DNA of 39,768 nt from a virus: the IMG/VR virus record IMGVR_UViG_3300037189_007807, positions 1 through 39,768 of that record, one strand, 5' to 3'. Made by a program: the position numbers and the translations under genes. Positions 184 to 39,768 of the stretch are shown in pieces (position 1 is the first letter of the stretch; every line of letters starts with the position of its first letter). The notes under the pieces were generated by a model, which was not told where the DNA came from, ran no database searches, and saw only the letters and a program-made list of their open reading frames with translations.

Positions 184-430
184 GTGGCAGGCAGGCCGCA
201 CCGGCGGCAGCCACTAGCCAGCCACCAGCACCAGGCCCCACCAGCCAGCACGCCACCAGCACCAGAGCCAGCCCGGCAGGCTGCAGCGGATCTCCTATCC
301 GCTCAAGCCCCAGGCCCCACCAGCCCGGCAGGGCGGCAGGGTGCCGACAGCCCCAGCCCCAGCCGGGCAGGGTGCCGGCCAGGCCCCAGCCAGCAGCCCG
401 GCAGGGCGGCCCCGGCCAGCTGGCAGCCCC
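184..430. repeat. C/G-rich interspersed direct-repeat tract
   Basis: The tract is built from reshuffled short blocks. CCAGGCCCCACCAGCC occurs exactly at 231-246 and 310-325. AGCCCGGCAGGGCGGC occurs at 322-337 and 395-410. GGCAGGGTGCCG occurs at 335-346 and 365-376. The mix of exact 12-16 bp copies suggests slippage or repeated recombination rather than coding sequence. It could be a terminal or origin-associated repeat; no function can be assigned. Confidence 0.55.
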
Positions 431-464: not shown

Positions 465-527
465 AAGCAGCTGCGCCCCGCGTAGGGGACACCACCGCAT
501 CACGCGACCCCAAAACGGGCGAGTGCG

Positions 528-582
528 GTGCGAACCCGGTGCGGGTCCAGCGCGCGTTCAGTGCGGATCCAGTGCGGGAGGT
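528..582. repeat. Iteron-like tandem 11-bp direct repeats
   Basis: Consecutive 11-bp units begin at 528, 539, 550 and 561, with a partial fifth at 572. The units are GTGCGAACCCG, GTGCGGGTCCA, GCGCGCGTTCA, GTGCGGATCCA and GTGCGGGAGGT, giving a consensus near GTGCGGRTCCA. The 11-bp period is close to one helical turn, so identical faces are presented to a protein. This is the usual layout of iterons in plasmid and phage origins. The array lies about 390 bp upstream of a RepL-like gene. That it is an origin is inference; the periodicity is directly visible. Confidence 0.5.
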
Positions 583-853
583 GGGAGGGATGTCTGCGGT
601 GGTGTGGAGGACCTCAGCGTTCCACGACCTGCAGCCCCCCTGTTGGAGGCGGGCCAGGGAGGGGGGAGGGGATGTATGTCGGAGTCAGGGGCCCTGGCCT
701 GCCGGAGACAGGGGGGCTGGTGGTGTTGGGTTTGCGGCTGTGATTGGACCTGGCTGTTGAAGGGTTCCCAGTAGAGAAATCAGAGTGCTTACCGATTGTT
801 GGGTGGTGGCCTGGGGGGTGATGCGGCCTAGGTGTCAGTCGAGCTACATTTTG

Positions 854-910
854 CCTAGGCACACCCCTTCCCCCCACTGGGTCGGATCCAGAGGGGGGTG
901 CAGACCTAGG
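854..910. promoter_or_regulatory. Inverted repeat with CCTAGG at both ends
   Basis: CCTAGG at 854-859 and 905-910 bracket an imperfect inverted repeat. The core stem is CCCCCC-A-CTGG (870-880) paired with CCAG-A-GGGGGG (888-898) around a 7-base loop. Just inside each CCTAGG, toward the loop, lies a CACCC block (CACACCCC on the left, GGGGTGCA on the right). Further CCTAGG copies lie at 827-832 and at 970-975 (codons 3-4 of the next gene), with the variant CCTAGT at 922-927. It is probably a control region or protein-binding site between divergent transcription units. Confidence 0.45.
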
Positions 911-963
911 GCCCTGAGGCACCTAGTAGCGGGGCTGCCTGCACAAGCGATGGATGCAAGCCC

Positions 964-1341
964 ATGAAGCCTAGGGACAACGGATCGGAGAACTTCACGA
1001 TGCTGTTCAACGAGGAGTTCAACGCCGCGGTGCTCGGTGCCGTGAGGCAGCGGCTGCTGCTGCCCCGCGATGTGCTGGTGCTGATGGGGGTGGTGACGAA
1101 CATGAACTGGCGCAGCGGCAGGGCACGGATCACGCCAAAGGCGCTGGCGGCCCAGGTCGGCATGCAGGACACCCACACCTACCTGTCGCTGAAGCGGCTG
1201 CAGCAGCAGCAGTTCCTGGCGCGGGTCTGCGATCCCCACACCGGCGAGGTGTACTTCCTGATCAACCCGCGGCTGGCCTCTGTCGGCAGCCCGCAGCGGC
1301 GGGGGCATCTGTTCCAGCAGTTCGATGAGGCCCTGGAGTGA
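964..1341 (+). CDS. RepL-like winged-helix protein (replication initiator or regulator)
   Basis: This 125-residue protein has a predicted helix-turn-helix at roughly residues 50-90 (the region around ITPKALAAQVGM and LSLKRLQQQQF). A C-terminal block follows with the pattern TGEVYFLINPRL, a short charged loop and LFQQFDEALE. That layout, wHTH then a x-LNP-x tail and a hydrophobic helix ending in F, is the one I know from the RepL family of plasmid and phage replication proteins. Small proteins of this type also act as regulators. It is the first gene of the rightward block, next to tandem repeats and an inverted repeat, and the window has no phage DNA polymerase. This makes an initiator role attractive. 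The start is the first ATG; no good Shine-Dalgarno is seen. The CCTAGG copy at 970-975 lies inside its first codons, so the protein could bind its own start region. The function is inferred from motif resemblance only. Confidence 0.6.
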   Translation: MKPRDNGSENFTMLFNEEFNAAVLGAVRQRLLLPRDVLVLMGVVTNMNWRSGRARITPKALAAQVGMQDTHTYLSLKRLQQQQFLARVCDPHTGEVYFLINPRLASVGSPQRRGHLFQQFDEALE

Positions 1342-1723
1342 GCCGGCCCTGCTGGCTACGCTGTGGCTGTCCTGCACCGCTGCAGCCGTGTCCCGGGCCC
1401 GATCGGCGAACGTCTACCTCGACAGCGCGGCACGGCAGCAGCTGGGGCTGACGGAAGGCTCGATCGTTCCGCTCTGGCGGGTGTGGGAGCGGATCACCCA
1501 GGTGTTCCCCGGCCAGGTGATCCCCTACCTCGGCCCGCCGGTGGCGGCATTCCTGGCACGCCTTCAGGCCCTGAGTGCTCTCACCAAGGCGGCGCTGGCG
1601 ACACTGCTGCAGACCACCTGGGGCGAGCAGCTCAACCCTGACGACCACAGCAAAACCGAGCTGGTGATGAAGGTGCTGGCCCATGAGGGCATCTGGGTGG
1701 ACCTTGCAACCTGGCGCGCTTGA
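1325..1723 (+). CDS. Hypothetical protein with N-terminal hydrophobic segment
   Basis: This 132-residue protein starts inside the end of the RepL-like gene (17-base overlap), which suggests translational coupling. Residues about 8-22 (ALLATLWLSCTAAAV) are hydrophobic and could be a signal peptide or membrane anchor. The rest is mixed helical with a second hydrophobic stretch (FLARLQALSALTKAALATLL). I do not recognise the family. Its place between a regulator/initiator and the large terminase would suit a small accessory packaging or regulatory protein, but nothing in the sequence proves that. Confidence 0.55.
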   Translation: MRPWSEPALLATLWLSCTAAAVSRARSANVYLDSAARQQLGLTEGSIVPLWRVWERITQVFPGQVIPYLGPPVAAFLARLQALSALTKAALATLLQTTWGEQLNPDDHSKTELVMKVLAHEGIWVDLATWRA

Positions 1724-1835: not shown

Positions 1836-3599
1836 TTGAGCGTCTACCCGATCCCGCCGGAGCTTGGCATCGGCCGCTTCGCGTACTTCTTCTGCTACAT
1901 CCTCCGCGAGCTGGGGCTGGCGGAGGAGCCGACCAAGCAGCAGCTGCGGATCTGCGAATGGGATGAGGTCGGCCCTGATCGCACCGTGACGGTGGGCTTT
2001 CGCGGCATCGCCAAATCCACCATCAGCGGCGCCCGTGCGCTGCATCGCCTCCGCATCGACCCGGAGGGAGAGAAGATCCTGATTCCTGGCGCCACGGAGA
2101 CCAAGGCCGAGGAGATCACCACCTTCATGGCCCGCTGCATCCGGGAGATCGACCTGCTGCAATGTCTGGCACCAGGCGAGAACCAGCGGCAATCGGTGCT
2201 GGCGTTCGATGTGGGTCCAGCAATCATCGGCGGCGATGGCGCCCCTTCCGTCCGGGCCTGCGGGATCCTCAGCCCCTCGCTCACCGGCAAGCGGGCGACC
2301 ATGATCATTCCGGACGACATCGAGACGCTGACCAACTCGATCACGCCGCTCAAGCAAGAGCGGCTGTGGGCAGCGACAACGGAGTTCGAGTCCATCCTGC
2401 TGCCGGACGCTGGCCAGCCCCTGCCACGGCAGATCAGCTTCCGCGGCACCCCACACCTGGAAACCTCCATGTACTGGAGGCTGGTGCGGGAGCGCGGCTA
2501 CAAGATGCGGATGTGGCCGGCCCGCTACCCCAGCGCGGAAGCGCTGGAGGTGTACGACGGCTGCCTCGACCCGCTGATGGTCGAGGAGATCACCGAGCAC
2601 CCGGCCCTGGTGGGGCAGGCGACCGACCCGGAACGCTTCAACGACGCTGAGCTGATCAAGCGCGAGACGGGCAGCACCAAGGCCAGCTGGCAGCTGCAGT
2701 ACATGCTCAACTGCCGGCTGAGCACGCTCGACAAGTTCCCGATCCGCCTCGGCGATCTGATCGTTATGTCGCTGGACGGCAAGGCGCTGCCGGAGGTGGT
2801 GAGCTGGGCGTCGGGGTCGGAGCAGCGGATCAACGAGCTGCCGTGCGTCGGCCTGGGGGCTGACCGCTACTACCACCGGCCGATGATGGTGCAGGGCTGG
2901 CTGCCGAAAGCGGAGAAGTGGCGCAGCATCATGGCGATCGACCCCTCCGGCCGCGGCAGCGATGAGCTGGCCTGGGCGGTGGTTGCAGAGCTCAGCGGCA
3001 ACCTGTTCGTACTCGATAGCGGCGGCACCACCCGCGGCTACGAGGACGACGTGCTGGTGATGCTGGCCAACACCGCCAAGCGGTGGGGGGTGAATGCCGT
3101 GATCCCGGAACCCAACTTCGGCGACGGCATGTTCAGCAAGGTGCTGCAGCCGGTGATGCAGCGCATCTACCCCTGCTCGATCGAGGAGGCCCCCAGGTCG
3201 ACCGGGCAGAAGGAGCGGCGCATCATCGACGTGCTGGCGCCGCTGGTGCAGCAGCACCGGGTTGTGGTCAGCAGCGAGCTGGTGCGCAAGGACTGGGAGG
3301 GCGCCGAGCGGGATGCGGACACCGGCCACCCGCGATCACTGATGTACCAGCTCAGCCGGATCACGACCGACCGGGGCAGCCTGCTCTACTACGACCGGAT
3401 CGACGCCCTGGCGATCGCTGCAGCCCATTTCGTGGAGGCCGCGGCCCAGGACCAGCGGAAGGCGGCGCAGCAGCGCCAGGACGAGCTGCTGGAGGCCACC
3501 CTGGCGGCCTGGATGGACGAGACCGGCGCCAACCTCGACGCCCTGGCGCTGGGCTTCACGCCGCGGCCCAGGGGCGCCACTGGTGGGATCAGGAGATAG
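1836..3599 (+). CDS. Terminase large subunit (T7 gp19-like DNA packaging ATPase/nuclease)
   Basis: This 587-residue protein matches T7 gp19 in length and motif order. The ATPase half shows a Walker-A-like GFRGIAKST (residues 54-62) and a Walker B ATMIIPDDIE (154-163). The nuclease half shows MAIDPSGRGSDE with D369, then PEPNFGDG (E425, D430) and YYDRIDALA (D520, D523), the acidic cluster of the RNase H-like fold. It translocates DNA into the procapsid and cuts concatemers at the portal. The start is TTG at 1836, preceded by GGGAGG. Unlike T7, it lies on the strand opposite to the structural genes. Its 3' end overlaps the convergent small-terminase candidate by 11 bases. Confidence 0.95.
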   Translation: MSVYPIPPELGIGRFAYFFCYILRELGLAEEPTKQQLRICEWDEVGPDRTVTVGFRGIAKSTISGARALHRLRIDPEGEKILIPGATETKAEEITTFMARCIREIDLLQCLAPGENQRQSVLAFDVGPAIIGGDGAPSVRACGILSPSLTGKRATMIIPDDIETLTNSITPLKQERLWAATTEFESILLPDAGQPLPRQISFRGTPHLETSMYWRLVRERGYKMRMWPARYPSAEALEVYDGCLDPLMVEEITEHPALVGQATDPERFNDAELIKRETGSTKASWQLQYMLNCRLSTLDKFPIRLGDLIVMSLDGKALPEVVSWASGSEQRINELPCVGLGADRYYHRPMMVQGWLPKAEKWRSIMAIDPSGRGSDELAWAVVAELSGNLFVLDSGGTTRGYEDDVLVMLANTAKRWGVNAVIPEPNFGDGMFSKVLQPVMQRIYPCSIEEAPRSTGQKERRIIDVLAPLVQQHRVVVSSELVRKDWEGAERDADTGHPRSLMYQLSRITTDRGSLLYYDRIDALAIAAAHFVEAAAQDQRKAAQQRQDELLEATLAAWMDETGANLDALALGFTPRPRGATGGIRR

Positions 3600-12440: not shown

Positions 12441-15400
12441 CTACCGCTGCAACGCGGCGCCGGGATTGATCGCTTCCACCAGGTCGCGCAGCTCGCCGGT
12501 GGCCTCCGTGAAGCGCTTTGCCGCCATGCGTGATCGCCGATCGCGCCAATCCGTGGCGGCTGGAGTTGAGGACGCATTGAGCTGATCCAGCGTCAGCAGG
12601 TGGAAGTAGGTGTAGACCCCCTGGATCATCTGCGAGGCGGCCTGCGAGCGGCGGCGCGCCGCCGGCATGTCGCGGACCTCCAGGTCGGAGGTGGTGCCGG
12701 GTCGGTCCTGCATCCGTTGGTAGACGGGGTCGTTGAACAGCGAGGTGAAGGCCTCGAGGATCGTGCGTCCCTTGACGTGCTTGGCCAGGAACGGCGCCAG
12801 CTCAACCGTGGCGTTCTCGCCCCCCTTGGCGACAACAACCCCGGAGCCCTTGAACTCCTGGCGCAGGTCCATCGAGACCTCCTTGGGCAGCGGGAAGGTC
12901 ACCGCGACCTTCGCCCCGGCGAGCTCCATCCGCGCCTCCAGCGGGATGCTGCCCTTCACCGTGCCGTAGGTGTTGCTGTATTCCGCCTGCAGCTCATCGC
13001 TCATCGCCACGCCCTCAAGCTGCCGGCGCAGCAGGGCGTTCGGCAGGGTCAGGCGGCCCTGGGCGTCGAGCTCGGCGTAGACCCGCTGGTGGGGCCGGGG
13101 CCAGATGCGAGGCAGGAACTGGGCCTTGGCCGTGTCCGCCCAGTCGGCCCCGAACTCCAGCATGATCGGCGACCCCAGAAAGTCGTTCGTCTTGCGCGGT
13201 GCGCCGCCGGCGAGGCCCATCAGGGGGATGGTGCCAAATGCCAGGTTGCGCAGGTTGCGCTCGATCTTGGTCGCCGGGTCGTCTTCCCCCAGCGCGAACC
13301 GCTCAGCGGGGCCGGGCTGCTGGTCTCGGTAGAAGTCCGTGCCGCTGGAGCCGGTGAGGCGCTGCATGTCGCGCATGACGCCGCTGCCGGGCAGCTGGCC
13401 CTGACCCAGCCACTGCACCAGCCGCGGCATCGCGGTTTCTGGATCCAGCAGCGCATCCACCAGGCGCTGCAGCTGGCCGAAGCCGGTCTGGCGGATCAGC
13501 TGGCTGGTCAGCACCTGCGCGACGCCCCAGAAGGCGTTGTGCTGGTCGAACGAGGAGTAGGACCCGGTGACAAACGTTTCCTTGATGTCCTTCCACAGAA
13601 ACAGGGTATTGAGGATCGGCAGCCCTCCCAGGTAGGGCACCCCGCCGATGCTGTTGGGCCGGTTTCCCTCCAGCAGCCAGGCGCGCCGCGCCGTCGGGTC
13701 CAGGGGCCCGTTGCCCTCGATCAGCCCCATCATGTCCAGCCCGGCGAACATGCCCAGCAGGCCGCCGGTCACGACCCAGCCCGCCTGCACCTTGGCGATC
13801 TGCTCCTTGGTCGGGTTCTTGCCGAAGACCACATGCACCGTTTCGGCCAGCGGCCCGAAGCTCAGGCGGGTGTCGAACAGGAACTGGTTGAACGGCGCAC
13901 GCCAGTAGGGCACTAGCGAATCGATCGCCCAGTGCTCACGGCCCTTCATCACGGCCTCATCGATCTTTCCTGCGAACTCGCCGGTGGGGGCAGCCTGCAT
14001 CCGGTTGCGCAGCGAGTAATCCATCGCACCCACCGCCTCGGGGGAATCGAGGGTGGGGTAGCCATAGGTCTCCCGCACGCGATCAGCGGTGATGATTTGC
14101 GCGATCTCGCCGTCGGTGATGTCGCTGTCCTTGAGGTTGTGCTGGCGGCGGAAGCTCTTGATGTTCTCCTCGGTCGGGGCTGCCTGGTAGAAGGCCTTGT
14201 CGAGCTCGCCCTGCACCCATTCCTCGCGGCTGCGGGCATCGAACAGGCCCAGCTGGGCGCCATCCTTGCGGGCCCGGATCTCGAGGTCGTTCTTCAGCTT
14301 GAACAGGAAGGCGTCGTAGCCGAGCACGCTGTCGCTGGCGCTCATGGCCCGCAGCGCAGGGATCAGCACCGCCGGGTTCTGGCCGGTCCAGTGGTAAGCC
14401 AGCATCCGGGTGCTGGCCTGCAGCTTGTGGACGTTCATCGCCCACCAGCGCGGATCGAGCGGGCCGCCGGGTGGGTACGGGGCCTCGATGACCGCCTGCA
14501 CATCGGCCAGCAGCTTCTCGTTCTTGTTGCCCCGCGCCCCGTAGGTGTCGACGTTGCCGCCGAACGGTGCATCGCCACGGAAGAAGGAGTCGGCCGCGAG
14601 CTCCCGCCAGGCCCGCCGCACCCCGTCGTGGGAGTAGGCGGCGCTCTCCCACGCAACCCGCAGCCCCTCGCCGAACGCTTCGCGGCTGAAGCGGGTGCCA
14701 TGGGGCGTGAGGTTGCCGATGTTCTCGAAGGCCTGGTGGACGAACCCATGGGTGTTGGCCAGCCAGCTGCCGATGGCGTTGGCGCGCACCTGGCTGCCGA
14801 AGTTCAGCAGCTGGGAGTCCTTCACCAGGGCATTCCCGAAGCGCATGTGGGAGTTGGCCCAGCCCTTGCCGAGCTTGGCGCGGGGGTCGAAACCGTCGAC
14901 GCTGGCAGCGATCTTGAGCTGCTTGATCTCCTCGGGCTTCCGGCCATCGATGGCATCCATCACCTGGCCGAAGTGCTCGTCCCTCACCACCTCCTGAGCC
15001 GTGGCGCCCAGCGTCTGCTTGGCCTCGGCCATGTCGACCGCGAAGTGGTGGGGTGCGGCGAAGTCCTCCTGAAGGCTGCGCAGGGCCTGGCCGGTGTTCC
15101 GCTTGGCGGTGCTCACATGCCGCTCGGCCATCAGCGCCAGCTTGTAGGTGCTGAACCCACGCCGCCGCAGGCCGTCAGGCACCGGGGCGGAGCTGTTGTC
15201 CATGAACTCGATGATCTGCCCCAGGGTGTCGAGATAACTGCCCTTGGCCATGTCGGCGATGAACCGCAGGCGCGTCATCTTCTCCGCCAGCGCCATGAAC
15301 CCAGCGGTGTTGTTGGCCAGCGCAGCGGCGATCGTGTCGGCGTCGGTGAACTCCCGGTAGGCATCGGCGACCGACTGCAGCAGCCGATCGCGCCCGTAGG

Positions 15401-20413: not shown

Positions 20414-23338
20414 TTACCTCCGTCGACTGGTGATGGTGTTGCCTGTGGCGCCGATGTCGCCTGGCACCAAGACGAACACCTGCCGGGTGGCTGAGCCGTA
20501 GATCAGGGGGCCTTTCGCGCTGCCGTTCCAGAGCGTCCGGCCCCCCTCGCGGGCGATCGCCGCATCGAAGCCCCGCGACCTGGACGACGTGCCGCCCCAG
20601 TCGAACTGCGTCTGGAACACGACGGCGCCGCTCGGCACCCGCCCGGCTGCGGCCGCCGCCTGGTACTCGCTTGCGCTCATCACGTTGGCGGTGAACGCCC
20701 CGTAGGGGCTGTTGATGGTGCGCGGCTGGCCAAGGCCGGGCAGGGGCTTCCAGCTGAACGAGCGCACCAGCTGCGACGCCAGGCCGCGGGGGTTGTTGCC
20801 GGCGTCCAGCCCCGTCGCGGCTGGGTTCGGCACGCCGTTCGCCTTCATCGAATCGAGCACAGCGGTCACGCACAGCCCGGGCCTTGTCGCCACCATCCGC
20901 CCGCTGCCGAGCCTGGCCAGCGTCGGGCTGCTGAGGGCCGGCCCGGCCGGCAGCGGCGAGTTGGTCGCCACGCTCACGCCACGGTTCGCCAGGCCCACCG
21001 CTGACGGCAGCCGCATCGCCGGCGCCGCCATGGCCGGCTTGGTACCGAGCAGCATGTCGAGCATCGCCACGCTGGCCCGCTGCACCGCGCTGGCCCGGTT
21101 GCCGCTCGCCGCGCCGGCCGCCGTGTTGCGCGCCGCCTGCGCCTGCCGCCCATCGCGCAGCAGCCGCTGGCGGTCGGCCGCCGGCACCTGGATGCTGCCC
21201 GGGTAGAAGTCGAGCTGCTTGATCAGCAGGGCGCCCGGGGTGGTGCCCGCATCCCGCGCGAAGCGGCGCAGCGCAGCGCTGGGCGCCCCGCCGCTCAGGA
21301 TCCGGTTCGCTTCCTGCACCACGGCCGCCGGCTCGAGGATCGGCTGTTGCCGCCAGCGGTTCAACGTGGCGGCCCGGTCGGGGATGTTGTCGAGCTGGCT
21401 GCTCGGGTAGACCCTGCCGGTGAATGGCTTGGTGCCAGGGGGCAGCACGGGAGGTTTTGCGCCGCCCTGGCCGCCGCCGCCCGCTGGCTGCTGCCGCTGC
21501 GCAGGGCCGGCCCCCTGCTGGCCGTTCACGCCGGGGAACAGATAGCGGCGGGCGTCCTGGTCCTTCTGCCCGTATTCCTCGATCGCCTTGGTCGCCTCGC
21601 CGATCGCTTCCGCCGCCGTGAGCGGGCGGCCCTTCTGCCCCTCTGCCGCCGCGATCCGGTCGCGGACGTGGCCCTGAAAGGCCGAGAACTGCCTGCGGGC
21701 CGATTCCGCCACGTTGGCGTCGGTCCAGCCGGCCATGATCGCCTCGGTGTTGACCCCCCGCAGCGCCGCCTCGGTGACAGAGCCGGGGTAGTTGACCCGC
21801 AGATTCGCCTTGATGGCCCGATCGATCACGCCATTCACCTCCCTGGTCGTCGGCGCGGTCTCGCGGGCGTTGTTCCGCTGGCGGATGTCGGCGTACTGGG
21901 CCCGCAGCTTCGGCCGCTCGTCTTCCGGTGCGCTCGCCAGCGCGATGTTGAACTCGGCGTCGGCCTGGGCTGGGTTCCATGCGCTGCCGTAGCGGCTGGT
22001 CATGTCCTGCAGCAGGGCCGTGACCCCATCCATCGACCGGCCGAGGCCCACCACCTTGTCGATCGTGCCGCTGGCCTTCTGCTCCAGCTCCAGCCGCTGG
22101 CTCAGTGGGAGCTCCTGGAACTTGGGATCGTTGCGCAACGCCTCGATCGCCCGCAGCCGCTCCGGCCCATCCGGCAAGCCATAGGTCGCCTGGATCAGCT
22201 GGTCCTGGTAGCTGCGCCCCAGCTCCTCTTGCCGGCGCTGCTGCCGCTTGTAGGCCACCTCCCCGTATTTGATCTCGCTGTCGAGGGCCTCCTGGGCGAA
22301 CATCCCCGCCGCCGGCTGGCGGAACCCCGTGCTGTCCGGCGGCCCCACCGGGATGCTCAGTGCCAGCCGCTTCAGCTCCTCGTTCCCATCGGCGTTGGCG
22401 ATGGCCAGCAGCTGCTCGATCGCTTGTTGCTTGACTGTCGCCACCTCGCCGGGCAGCCCCATCTCCTCGACCAGCCGATCGAGGGTGGCCCCCATCACCT
22501 GGCTGCGGGCCTGATCCCAGCCAGGGTCTCCAGTCTTGACCAGCTGGCGCCGACCATCGGGGGCGAACACCTCCAGCTGCCCCTCGTCCAGCGACCTGAC
22601 ATAGAGGCCCAGCATTTCGGCCGATGCCGTCCTCGGCACCGTCCGCTTCAGGTGCGCGCTGCGGTCCTGCCAGTGCAGTTCCGTCATCCGGTCGCTGCCT
22701 TCGTTGATCTGCGGCAGGACGTTCTGGATGAACCCGGGGCTGGCCTCGGTCACCCCGTACTTCTTGAGCACGGACTGCACGGCCCGGGCCTTGATCTCGG
22801 CGAGCCGTGGGTCCCGCTCGTCGAGCTGCTCCACGCCGGGCTGGTCCCGATAGGCCGCGATGATCGCCGGCTTGACCTCCATCCCCGCCAGCTGGACCAG
22901 GGCCCGCTCTCGCCCCGACCGCCGCCACGGGTTCACCGTGTCCATCATCAGCGCAGCGACCGGATCGGCCTGCGCCAGCCGGCGGTTCTCCGCGGCGTAC
23001 TCCCGCCCCGACTGCCGCTGTTGCTCGTCCAGCAGGGCCTTGGCCCGCAGCGCTTCGTTGACGCCGCGCTGCACCTGCGAGCTGGCGTACATCGTCAGGC
23101 CGGTGCCGGCGAGCTCCGTCAGCCGCTGGTTGAAGGGCGCCAGGGCCTGCGCCATCTGCTCGAACTGGTTGATGCCCTGCAGGCTGCCGCCGCTGGCCTG
23201 CTGGATCACCCCGATGCCCTGCACCCGCGGGATCTCCACCGGCCCCGCCGGCGCCGCGATCTGCCGGCGGACGGGCTCGAGGAAGCTCGCAACCGGCTGC
23301 GCCGCCGGGCGGATCTGCCCATCAGGAAGCCTCGTCAT
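20414..23338 (-). CDS. Internal virion protein, gp15-like, with C-terminal CHAP/NlpC-like domain
   Basis: This 974-residue protein is mostly helical with long heptad-like segments, as in T7 gp15 (747 residues), which lines the ejected DNA channel. The C-terminal ~150 residues look like a papain-type (CHAP/NlpC) fold: GLCVTAVLDSMKANG with a possible nucleophile C823, GAVVFQTQFDWGG, and SRGFDAAIAREGGRTLW. In active NlpC/CHAP enzymes a His sits near the GFDAAI position; here it is F924. The domain may be inactive or use another residue. It could locally cut peptidoglycan during ejection, a job done by the lytic transglycosylase of gp16 in T7. Its ATG overlaps the gp14-like stop (TGATG). Confidence 0.75.
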   Translation of the reverse strand: MTRLPDGQIRPAAQPVASFLEPVRRQIAAPAGPVEIPRVQGIGVIQQASGGSLQGINQFEQMAQALAPFNQRLTELAGTGLTMYASSQVQRGVNEALRAKALLDEQQRQSGREYAAENRRLAQADPVAALMMDTVNPWRRSGRERALVQLAGMEVKPAIIAAYRDQPGVEQLDERDPRLAEIKARAVQSVLKKYGVTEASPGFIQNVLPQINEGSDRMTELHWQDRSAHLKRTVPRTASAEMLGLYVRSLDEGQLEVFAPDGRRQLVKTGDPGWDQARSQVMGATLDRLVEEMGLPGEVATVKQQAIEQLLAIANADGNEELKRLALSIPVGPPDSTGFRQPAAGMFAQEALDSEIKYGEVAYKRQQRRQEELGRSYQDQLIQATYGLPDGPERLRAIEALRNDPKFQELPLSQRLELEQKASGTIDKVVGLGRSMDGVTALLQDMTSRYGSAWNPAQADAEFNIALASAPEDERPKLRAQYADIRQRNNARETAPTTREVNGVIDRAIKANLRVNYPGSVTEAALRGVNTEAIMAGWTDANVAESARRQFSAFQGHVRDRIAAAEGQKGRPLTAAEAIGEATKAIEEYGQKDQDARRYLFPGVNGQQGAGPAQRQQPAGGGGQGGAKPPVLPPGTKPFTGRVYPSSQLDNIPDRAATLNRWRQQPILEPAAVVQEANRILSGGAPSAALRRFARDAGTTPGALLIKQLDFYPGSIQVPAADRQRLLRDGRQAQAARNTAAGAASGNRASAVQRASVAMLDMLLGTKPAMAAPAMRLPSAVGLANRGVSVATNSPLPAGPALSSPTLARLGSGRMVATRPGLCVTAVLDSMKANGVPNPAATGLDAGNNPRGLASQLVRSFSWKPLPGLGQPRTINSPYGAFTANVMSASEYQAAAAAGRVPSGAVVFQTQFDWGGTSSRSRGFDAAIAREGGRTLWNGSAKGPLIYGSATRQVFVLVPGDIGATGNTITSRRR

Positions 23339-28844: not shown

Positions 28845-28896
28845 TGGTGAAATGGCTGCGAGCCTCTACCACCTCAGGCATGCGCGAGCAGGGTGT

Positions 28897-28908
28897 CGGC
28901 CTAGGCCG
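28897..28908. promoter_or_regulatory. CCTAGG-centred palindrome upstream of capsid, promoter candidate
   Basis: CGGCCTAGGCCG is a perfect 12-bp palindrome about 50 bases upstream of the capsid start, in the only sizeable gap of the structural operon (28845-28950). On the minus strand it reads CCTAGGCCGACACCC. A closely similar CCTAGGTCTGCACCC occurs at the left intergenic region (minus strand of 896-910). T7 has its strongest late promoter, phi10, at the equivalent place. A phage RNA polymerase promoter or processing site is the inference. Confidence 0.4.
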
Positions 28909-28950
28909 GCCTGTGCTTTGCGTGAGTGCAGATCAACTCATGCACACCTT

Positions 28951-36171: not shown

Positions 36172-36524
36172 CACCAAATCACGGACAAAAGGATGGTTTG
36201 ACTGTGCCGTGGGGCTTGTTTCCATTCGGCCTCAATCCGCCGAATCACGGTCACCCGGTCGTCGATCCAGATAATCCCCCGGCCGGCGTCGAGAACGGCG
36301 CCGGCCAGGTTGTCGAGGTCGCTGGTGCCAGGACCGCAGAAGGTCAGCTGAAGCGCGATGACTTCGCCCTTGCCGAGCGGCGGCCGGGTCCACCATTCAG
36401 CCAGGATTGCGCGCGCTGACCGCATCCACTCCCGGTAGCGGTCGCTGGTGTAGGCATGGCCAGAGAAGCGCGGGCGTGCTTTGGGCTGCAGCGGCAGGGG
36501 CAGCTCGAAAAGGGCTTGCTGCAT
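36171..36524 (-). CDS. RusA-like Holliday junction resolvase
   Basis: This 117-residue protein is about the size of E. coli RusA (120). PLQPKARPRFSGHAYTSDRY is the N-terminal signature (PxxKxRPRF, Y-W). The acidic cluster SDLDNLAGAVLDA with D69, D71 and D79, then IIWIDDRVT (D88, D89), matches the RusA metal site. It cuts four-way junctions before packaging. T7 uses endonuclease I (gp3) for this task, so the enzyme has been replaced. The ATG overlaps the SSB stop (TGATG). Confidence 0.9.
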   Translation of the reverse strand: MQQALFELPLPLQPKARPRFSGHAYTSDRYREWMRSARAILAEWWTRPPLGKGEVIALQLTFCGPGTSDLDNLAGAVLDAGRGIIWIDDRVTVIRRIEAEWKQAPRHSQTILLSVIW

Positions 36525-37174
36525 CAGAACGGCGCTTCCTCGTCGTCGAGGTCGTCCTGAACAGCCGCACGCCGCTGCAGCCGCTGGCTGGGCGGCAGCG
36601 TGTCATCGGTCTCGCCAGCCGAAGCCGGCGGAGCGGTGACATAGCCGTTCTCCTTCTCGAACGCATCCGCCGGATCGCGCTGCTGGTACGGCACCAGGTC
36701 GAGGATCTGCACGGCCTCCAGCGAAAGCGAGACGCCTTTGCGGCCGAACTTGTCTTCCCAGCCCCAGCAGCTGAATGCGACCTTGGCCTTGCTGCCGTTG
36801 CCGATCAGCAGGCCCTGGGGCCACGGGTTCTTGTGCGAGTCGTAGACCGCCGGCGCCTGCAAGACGCTGCCCTTCTTGGTGGTCTCGTTCTTCTTGAATC
36901 GGAACTCGAGCAGGCCCGTTGCGGTGCCCTCCCGGTCCACCTGGTCGCGGAACGGCCATGCGTTCTTGGATGGCTTCGCCCCTTCCCCATGCAGGCGGGC
37001 GAACTCGCCTTCGATGGTCTGCATCAGGGCGACCGTTTCGGGGTCCCGCACGTCCCCGCACCAGCTGATCGACCAGCTGCGGGGCTTGCTCTCGTCGAAG
37101 CGGTCTTCCTCGGGCTCAAAGAGCTTGGCCCAGTAGGCATCGCCTACTGGGGTCACGACCGTTTGCCGCGCCAT
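36524..37174 (-). CDS. Single-stranded DNA-binding protein (gp2.5-like)
   Basis: This protein has 216 residues from MARQTVV; an ATG 9 bases upstream is also possible. The strongest sign is the C-terminus, QDDLDDEEAPF: an acidic tail ending in Phe, the hallmark of T7 gp2.5-type SSBs that contact replication partners. The middle is beta-rich with KAKVAFSCWGWEDKFG and VSLSLEAVQILDLVPYQQ, as expected for an OB fold. It coats ssDNA and promotes annealing. It is the first gene after RNA polymerase. An AGGAGG (37209-37214) lies about 25 bases upstream of the first possible ATG, farther than usual. Confidence 0.8.
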   Translation of the reverse strand: MARQTVVTPVGDAYWAKLFEPEEDRFDESKPRSWSISWCGDVRDPETVALMQTIEGEFARLHGEGAKPSKNAWPFRDQVDREGTATGLLEFRFKKNETTKKGSVLQAPAVYDSHKNPWPQGLLIGNGSKAKVAFSCWGWEDKFGRKGVSLSLEAVQILDLVPYQQRDPADAFEKENGYVTAPPASAGETDDTLPPSQRLQRRAAVQDDLDDEEAPF

Positions 37175-37208: not shown

Positions 37209-37240
37209 CCTCCTAGTAGCTGCAGTGGCAACCACCTAGG
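37209..37240 (-). promoter_or_regulatory. Gap between RNA polymerase and SSB with CCTAGG/CCTAGT
   Basis: CCTAGG (37235-37240) spans the RNA polymerase stop codon, and CCTAGT (37212-37217) lies 20 bases on, next to AGGAGG. Both hexamers resemble the elements in the left intergenic region and upstream of capsid. It could hold a promoter or RNA-processing site for the middle genes. Chance is possible, because one copy contains the TAG stop. Confidence 0.3.
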
Positions 37241-39632: not shown

Positions 39633-39744
39633 GGTGCGGCAGAGGTAGCGGCATGCACTTATTACACCTCACCCCTGCAGAGCGCAGGATGCAGGCCCCA
39701 GGCCCAGGCCGGGCCAGTCATCTGCAGGGCTGCAGAGTTTGAGA

Positions 39745-39761
39745 ACGGATTATGAGTCCGC
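39745..39761 (-). other. tRNA-Met(CAU)-type anticodon arm, possible attachment-site core
   Basis: On the minus strand GCGGA-CTCATAA-TCCGT forms a 5-bp stem (one G-T) with a 7-base loop. The anticodon CAT sits at the canonical position between CT and AA. The flanks GCA before and T after also fit bacterial tRNA-Met. Beyond that, no T-arm (TTCGA) follows in the window, so this is not a complete tRNA gene. P-SSP7-type podoviruses carry a tRNA-matching segment, so an attP core is plausible. The 5' half would lie outside the window. Confidence 0.5.
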
Positions 39762-39768
39762 TGCATTC

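Follow-up and report, generated by a model that had tools for sequence, protein, structure and literature searches.

The textbook example of a self-contained replisome is that of T7-like phages, and among plasmids iterons are the hallmark of Rep_3 replicons. For the marine MPP-C cyanopodoviruses the mode of replication has been stated to be open (PMC9860041). Plasmids of the RepL (pSN2) type have been placed among the rolling-circle replicons, with a dso that is said to be recognisable, even if RepL initiation itself is poorly understood (PMC5703833); in pBAS2, neither an obvious nick site nor a single-stranded intermediate was found (PMC5779722). Literature searches on RepL together with either cyanophages or the Autographiviridae brought up no earlier report.

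The sequence analyzed here (the window) is the whole of IMG/VR virus record IMGVR_UViG_3300037189_007807 (39,768 bp, end repeats absent), an incomplete linear contig from a T7-like cyanophage of the S-SRP02 lineage. Ahead of its large terminase gene lies the gene of a winged-helix protein, preceded by a conserved divergent intergenic region of some 0.9 kb (about 82-963) with a short tandem array, which a first-pass annotation had read as the iterons of a plasmid-type origin (Table 1).

Table 1. Features of the intergenic region, its neighbours and the second operator locus in the window
Feature	Position	Strand	Remark
Start of divergent ORF, truncated at the left contig end	1..81	-	ArdC- or clamp-containing early operons at this place in relatives
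Perfect dyad AGCGGAT-N5-ATCCGCT (recurring form GCGGAT-N5-ATCCGC)	285..303	.	Kept in many relatives, with differing spacers
Box A, GACACCACCGCATCACGCGACCCCAAAACGGGC	488..520	.	Varies least of the lineage's non-coding elements; the array starts at its end
Imperfect 11-bp tandem array	519..577 (core 528-577, weak extension to 519)	.	Private to the window genome
Box B, CCAGTAGAGAAATCAGAG	768..785	.	Ahead of the RepL-like gene at a nearly fixed distance (-191 to -224)
CCTAGG copies	827-832, 854-859	.	Operator comparison with relatives
Leader hairpin CCCCCC-A-CTGG (GTCGGAT) CCAG-A-GGGGGG	870..898	+	Loop conserved; stem pairs covary modestly
CCTAGG (905-910) and CCTAGT (922-927)	905..927	.	Degenerate form of the paired ACWCCTAGGWGT palindromes of relatives
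RepL-family (PF05732-like) winged-helix protein, 125 aa	964..1341	+	Pfam, hhalign, motif and structure; candidate replication initiator
CCTAGG within repL codons 3-4	970-975
Small ORF between the repL-like gene and terL	1325..1723	+	Positioned as a small terminase subunit (candidate by position)
T7-type large terminase (terL)	1836..3599	+	Downstream of the repL-like gene, same direction
gp2.5-like ssDNA-binding protein gene	36524..37174	-	Behind the RNAP-SSB operator
Second operator locus, RNAP-SSB junction	37212..37240	-	CCTAGG 37235-37240 and a degenerate copy 37212-37217, 23 bp on

The phage lineage and its replication genes

The T7-like character ascribed to the phage at first sight is borne out by a T7-type TerL, an RNAP, a Gp10A-like capsid protein, a nozzle protein and a T7 tail-fibre domain, alongside which the window encodes a portal and a gp2.5-like ssDNA-binding protein. 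The nearest annotated relative is the freshwater Synechococcus phage S-SRP02 (MW822601; TerL 61% identical), a complete genome deposited as circular. In S-SRP02 and in IMG/VR relatives, the RNAP gene is separated from the winged-helix gene by several kb of early region, comprising an ArdC or clamp-like gene, a MarR gene and an integrase gene. The window lacks this region because the right end of the contig stops within the att-like core that in relatives lies between integrase and RNAP. This end (39741-39768) carries on the minus strand of the window a core identical to that of GCAGCGGACTCATAATCCG in relatives; GCAGCGGACTCATAATCCG lies between int and RNAP in G001, G002, G003, G013, G017 and G018 and is found within host tRNA-Met (CAT) genes of two cyanobacterial genomes. 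It is likely to be the attP core, and the T7-like phages of this lineage are probably temperate. Elsewhere in the window, a hairpin-like leader, GAGGGCCCTTCTGCCGTGACGGTGGGAGGGCC, stands directly before terL (1799-1832), with a similar one in S-SRP02, and a GCCGGCCTAGGCCGAC-type palindrome upstream of the major capsid gene (28893-28912) is restricted to the subgroup of the window (G001, G002, G003, G005).

A family A DNA polymerase (DNA_pol_A) was detected in none of 22 records, and DnaB_C and primase-helicase in none of 14 lineage records, with S37-C6 and P-SCSP1u positive in the same searches. The missing polymerase pointed out in the first-pass annotation is thus a true property of the lineage, but it could not have been concluded from a fragment contig alone, and the loss extends to the helicase-primase. 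The marine relative S37-C6 keeps the helicase-primase and shows no RepL match at the position of the RepL gene. Most records encode an ArdC-type protein (ArdcN plus zincin) in a divergent early operon opposite the RepL-like gene, and in 8 of 22 records a clamp-like gene, with weak matches to DNA_pol3_beta_2 and to a PHROG processivity factor, diverges from repL. Divergent early operons with the ArdC-type protein, and in some phages also a small clamp-like protein, can be seen in L022 (8162-9142, minus strand) and L024 (5925-6611, minus strand). The S-SRP02 gene at 22389-23129 (record L007) is annotated as 'DNA polymerase I' and matches only 5'-3' exonuclease models; the gene list of the concatenated tree in the S-SRP02 paper includes 'DNA polymerase'.

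A winged-helix protein of the RepL family

Alignment of the 125-aa protein with 25 relatives, which are 38-59% identical to it, concentrates the invariant residues at the C-terminus (NPxxAxVGG...RRGHLxQQF). Residues N101, P102 and G108, an N-P...G pattern following the wing, are invariant in the 26 members, and such a motif has been described for RepL (PMC5779722). Several members pass the curated cut-off of the Pfam RepL model (PF05732; 20.3 bits) near full length (20.7-23.2 bits, residues 4-122), including those of L016 (21.3), L020 (21.5), L024 (23.0) and L029 (22.4) and those of genomes G009, G012, G014, G018 and G021; the window's own copy (12.4 bits) and that of S-SRP02 (17.3 bits) fall below it. 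No Pfam family other than RepL exceeds its own cut-off among the members, MarR_2 staying at or below 22.7 bits where its cut-off is 27. Comparison by hhalign with eleven genuine RepL proteins, drawn from plasmids, phages and a single genome, yields a probability of 95.7% (E 9.5e-9) over 107 columns, the N-P...G motif included, as against 10% for a MarR control profile and 16% for the winged-helix protein that S37-C6 has at the same position. Coverage is the telling part of this evidence, since RepL against MarR reaches 87% over the 27-column HTH only.

The AlphaFold2 model of the window protein (mean pLDDT 83.6) finds in the PDB generic, mostly MarR-type winged helices at low confidence, and among viral models an S38-C3 protein (TM 0.79/0.81) and a RepL-annotated phage protein (TM 0.63/0.66). 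PHROGs contain no match for the window's protein, and a tblastn search of plasmids with one member returned weak matches and no significant relative; one homolog resides in a 3.8 kb Cyanobium MAG contig. Taken together, the Pfam, hhalign, motif and structural matches uphold the RepL-like layout proposed for the protein, the full-length profile comparison with RepL having come out in its favour, and confirm that the product of the gene is related to plasmid RepL at the family level. RepL-family genes were also observed in further phages of marine origin, namely in Alteromonas phage PT11-V19 (L087, 3001-3393), near a divergent RNA polymerase gene, and in Pseudoalteromonas phage HS1 (L086, 2917-3369), near a primase-helicase-type gene.

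In some members MarR_2, HTH_36 and similar models match with E-values of about 1e-4, as good as those of RepL, and this, together with the low score of the window's own protein and its merely generic fold matches among solved structures, weakens its reading as an initiator. The same matches, the MarR-type folds and the operators directly before the gene would suit a phage transcription regulator without replication role, which would itself bind CCTAGG and control its own terL operon, the MarR-integrase genes and the SSB operon. We deem such a regulator unlikely, though a serious competitor, given that no transcription-factor family rises above its cut-off and RepL does, and that the MarR control profile stays so low; the distribution of the operators, discussed below, bears on the same point.

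The repeat array and the conserved intergenic region

The array is detected by TRF with a period of 11, 4.5 copies, 71% matches and a score of 44. Against the consensus GTGCGGRTCCA, its units match at 8/11 (528), 11/11 (539), 8/11 (550) and 11/11 (561) positions, followed by a 6-bp partial unit at 572. Of the initial description as four full units and a partial fifth, the array and its period therefore stand, but only two units (539-549 and 561-571) are perfect copies. Its location in non-coding DNA is supported by comparison with relatives, and the distance to the gene, given as about 390 bp, is 387 bp to the ATG at 964. The periodicity is above local chance, being reached in only 0-1 of 300 Markov-1/2 simulations for any period from 7 to 30. 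The array ranks only sixth in strength among the short-period arrays of the window, similar arrays are found also within coding regions, and single matches to the consensus (up to two mismatches) are about as frequent across the genome as chance predicts (40 against an expected 38.8).

Its conservation was assessed in 36 relatives (L002-L006, L008-L037, L039 and S-SRP02), each with an intact neighbouring gene and upstream DNA. The array is absent in all 36, with alignment scores within the range of shuffled array copies, and it mostly falls in a gap of the close-relative alignment, flanked on both sides by conserved DNA. A real 11-bp periodicity upstream of a RepL-like gene is what would be expected of iterons bound by an initiator that opens an iteron-type theta origin. 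We nevertheless consider this interpretation, advanced in the first-pass annotation, very improbable: the array is unconserved between conserved flanks, an outcome that the annotation itself had named as a refutation, it has only two perfect units, similar arrays lie inside coding regions, and descriptions of RepL replicons do not class them as iteron-type (PMC5703833). By the settings used, a 1.55-kb minimal RepL plasmid is free of direct repeats, and iterons are therefore not expected with RepL; no Rep_3 match appeared among the Pfam matches of the 26 members, within the first 25 of 26 families. The array is most simply read as a tandem duplication that arose locally in a rapidly changing spacer. 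The first 1000 bp of the window have a GC content of 67.8%.

Five kinds of element do recur in the intergenic region of relatives, namely the dyad, Box A, Box B, the leader hairpin and the 12-bp palindrome. Box A is itself duplicated at 31 or 38 bp spacing in some relatives. Box B is unlikely to be a promoter of the phage RNAP, close matches to it occurring once per genome. Several pairs of the hairpin stem have changed on both sides, and covariation over the hand-made structure is modest but exceeds that of slid controls. No known RNA family reached its gathering threshold for the leader hairpins in the window, L022 giving sub-threshold chance matches only, and RNAalifold on the MAFFT alignment gave no useful structure. 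Box A and the hairpins are only positional candidates for dso/ssoA. Cumulative GC skew, an origin check initially proposed, is uninformative and does not point to the intergenic region, gene orientation and the contig end acting as confounders of its extremes (11.6 and 18.2 kb in S-SRP02; 0.5 and 16.4 kb in the window). An origin within the repL coding sequence was also considered and set aside, high synonymous conservation being confined to the first ~16 codons (0.95/0.85); beyond these, conservation is near the level of terL, except at codons 41-48.

The region could alternatively serve chiefly for packaging or as the genome end, carrying divergent promoters and no origin. Its synteny beside terL and the early region, the single-copy invariant boxes A and B and the hairpins would fit such a role, and in T7 the genome ends lie between the terL side and the early genes. 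S-SRP02, on the other hand, is deposited as circular, and packaging leaves both the RepL-family gene and the common operators unexplained, so that we regard it as improbable in place of an origin. It is at the same time compatible with an origin in the same region, which may also hold a packaging site because it lies between terL and the early genes.

The common operator and a proposed model of replication control

The palindrome ACWCCTAGGWGT occurs exactly four times in S-SRP02, twice before the winged-helix gene, once before the MarR gene and once between the genes for RNAP and the ssDNA-binding protein, and not once in 15 simulations under a third-order Markov model. Long relatives have it at the same three locations, sometimes in degenerate form, and the two RNAP-SSB sites are 23 bp apart in S-SRP02-type genomes, a spacing which the window shares. 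This distribution looks like that of a transcriptional operator, as opposed to iterons clustered at one origin, and through the common operators repL comes under joint control with the ssDNA-binding-protein gene. At 13599 in S-SRP02 and its equivalents, the MarR operator reads ACT CCT AGG AGT in an apparently open upstream frame; it is identical in nine genomes, and the neighbouring codons vary.

Between subgroups with the common operator, the integrase-linked MarR shows hardly any change in its recognition helix, whereas that of the RepL-like protein differs strongly. The marine phage S38-C3, moreover, has CCTAGG just before MarR and not before its RepL-like gene. Both observations argue against the RepL-like protein as a regulator acting on these sites, and for this reason the integrase-linked MarR is probably the binder of CCTAGG.

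Phages that borrow the host replicase need an initiator, and the RepL-family match at this gene is the sole one in each phage genome searched. A replication role for its product is plausible because polymerase and helicase are absent, because it is the only such match and because it has an operator in common with the ssDNA-binding-protein gene. The divergent clamp-like gene of some records and the missing RepL match in S37-C6, with its retained primase-helicase, likewise speak for this role. We infer that the RepL-family protein would act as an initiator, binding a site in or near the intergenic region and bringing in host DNA polymerase III, with the phage clamp-like protein helping in some members and the ssDNA-binding protein, RusA and the 5'-3' exonuclease assisting. 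Expression of repL would be tied to the replication operon by the CCTAGG operators, which stand ahead of repL and of the MarR-integrase genes as well as at the RNAP-SSB junction and to which MarR probably binds. The best explanation as a whole, in which we place about even confidence, hence combines a RepL-family initiator in a T7-like lineage without polymerase and helicase-primase of its own, replication by host Pol III, control through CCTAGG and an array outside the functional core of the origin. That a lineage of apparently temperate T7-like cyanophages has swapped the T7 replisome for a plasmid-type RepL initiator recruiting host Pol III, with replication, SSB operon and integrase-MarR module wired by one operator, is a broader proposition that we put forward more tentatively, at somewhat less than an even chance.

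Among known systems, the RepL plasmid proteins (PF05732; pSN2/pIM13/pBAS2 type) resemble the window's protein in size, winged-helix layout, full-length profile match, N-P...G motif and the position of the gene beside a large non-coding region, but here the gene is carried by a T7-like phage beside terL. Iteron (Rep_3) plasmid origins share with this locus tandem repeats upstream of a replication gene, although here the repeats are short (11 bp), degenerate and unconserved, and accompany no Rep_3 protein match. S-SRP02 and the uvMED phage MedDCM-OCT-S38-C3 have in common with the window's lineage the RepL-like gene before terL, a divergent early region with MarR and integrase, a T7-type RNAP and the lack of polymerase or helicase; they differ in that S-SRP02 is without the array and none is seen by eye in S38-C3, and in both the gene is annotated as 'hypothetical protein'. 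The MPP-C cyanopodoviruses (P-SCSP1u) are likewise T7-like and devoid of DNA polymerase, but they retain a primase-helicase, lack any RepL match and are annotated with neither an integrase nor MarR. The lineage described here goes past MPP-C in that the helicase-primase is undetected too, and it offers candidates for the initiator and for the origin region, a set of operators and an isolate, S-SRP02 on Synechococcus SR-C1. If true, the proposed mechanism would suggest a way in which such phages start DNA copying with host machinery.
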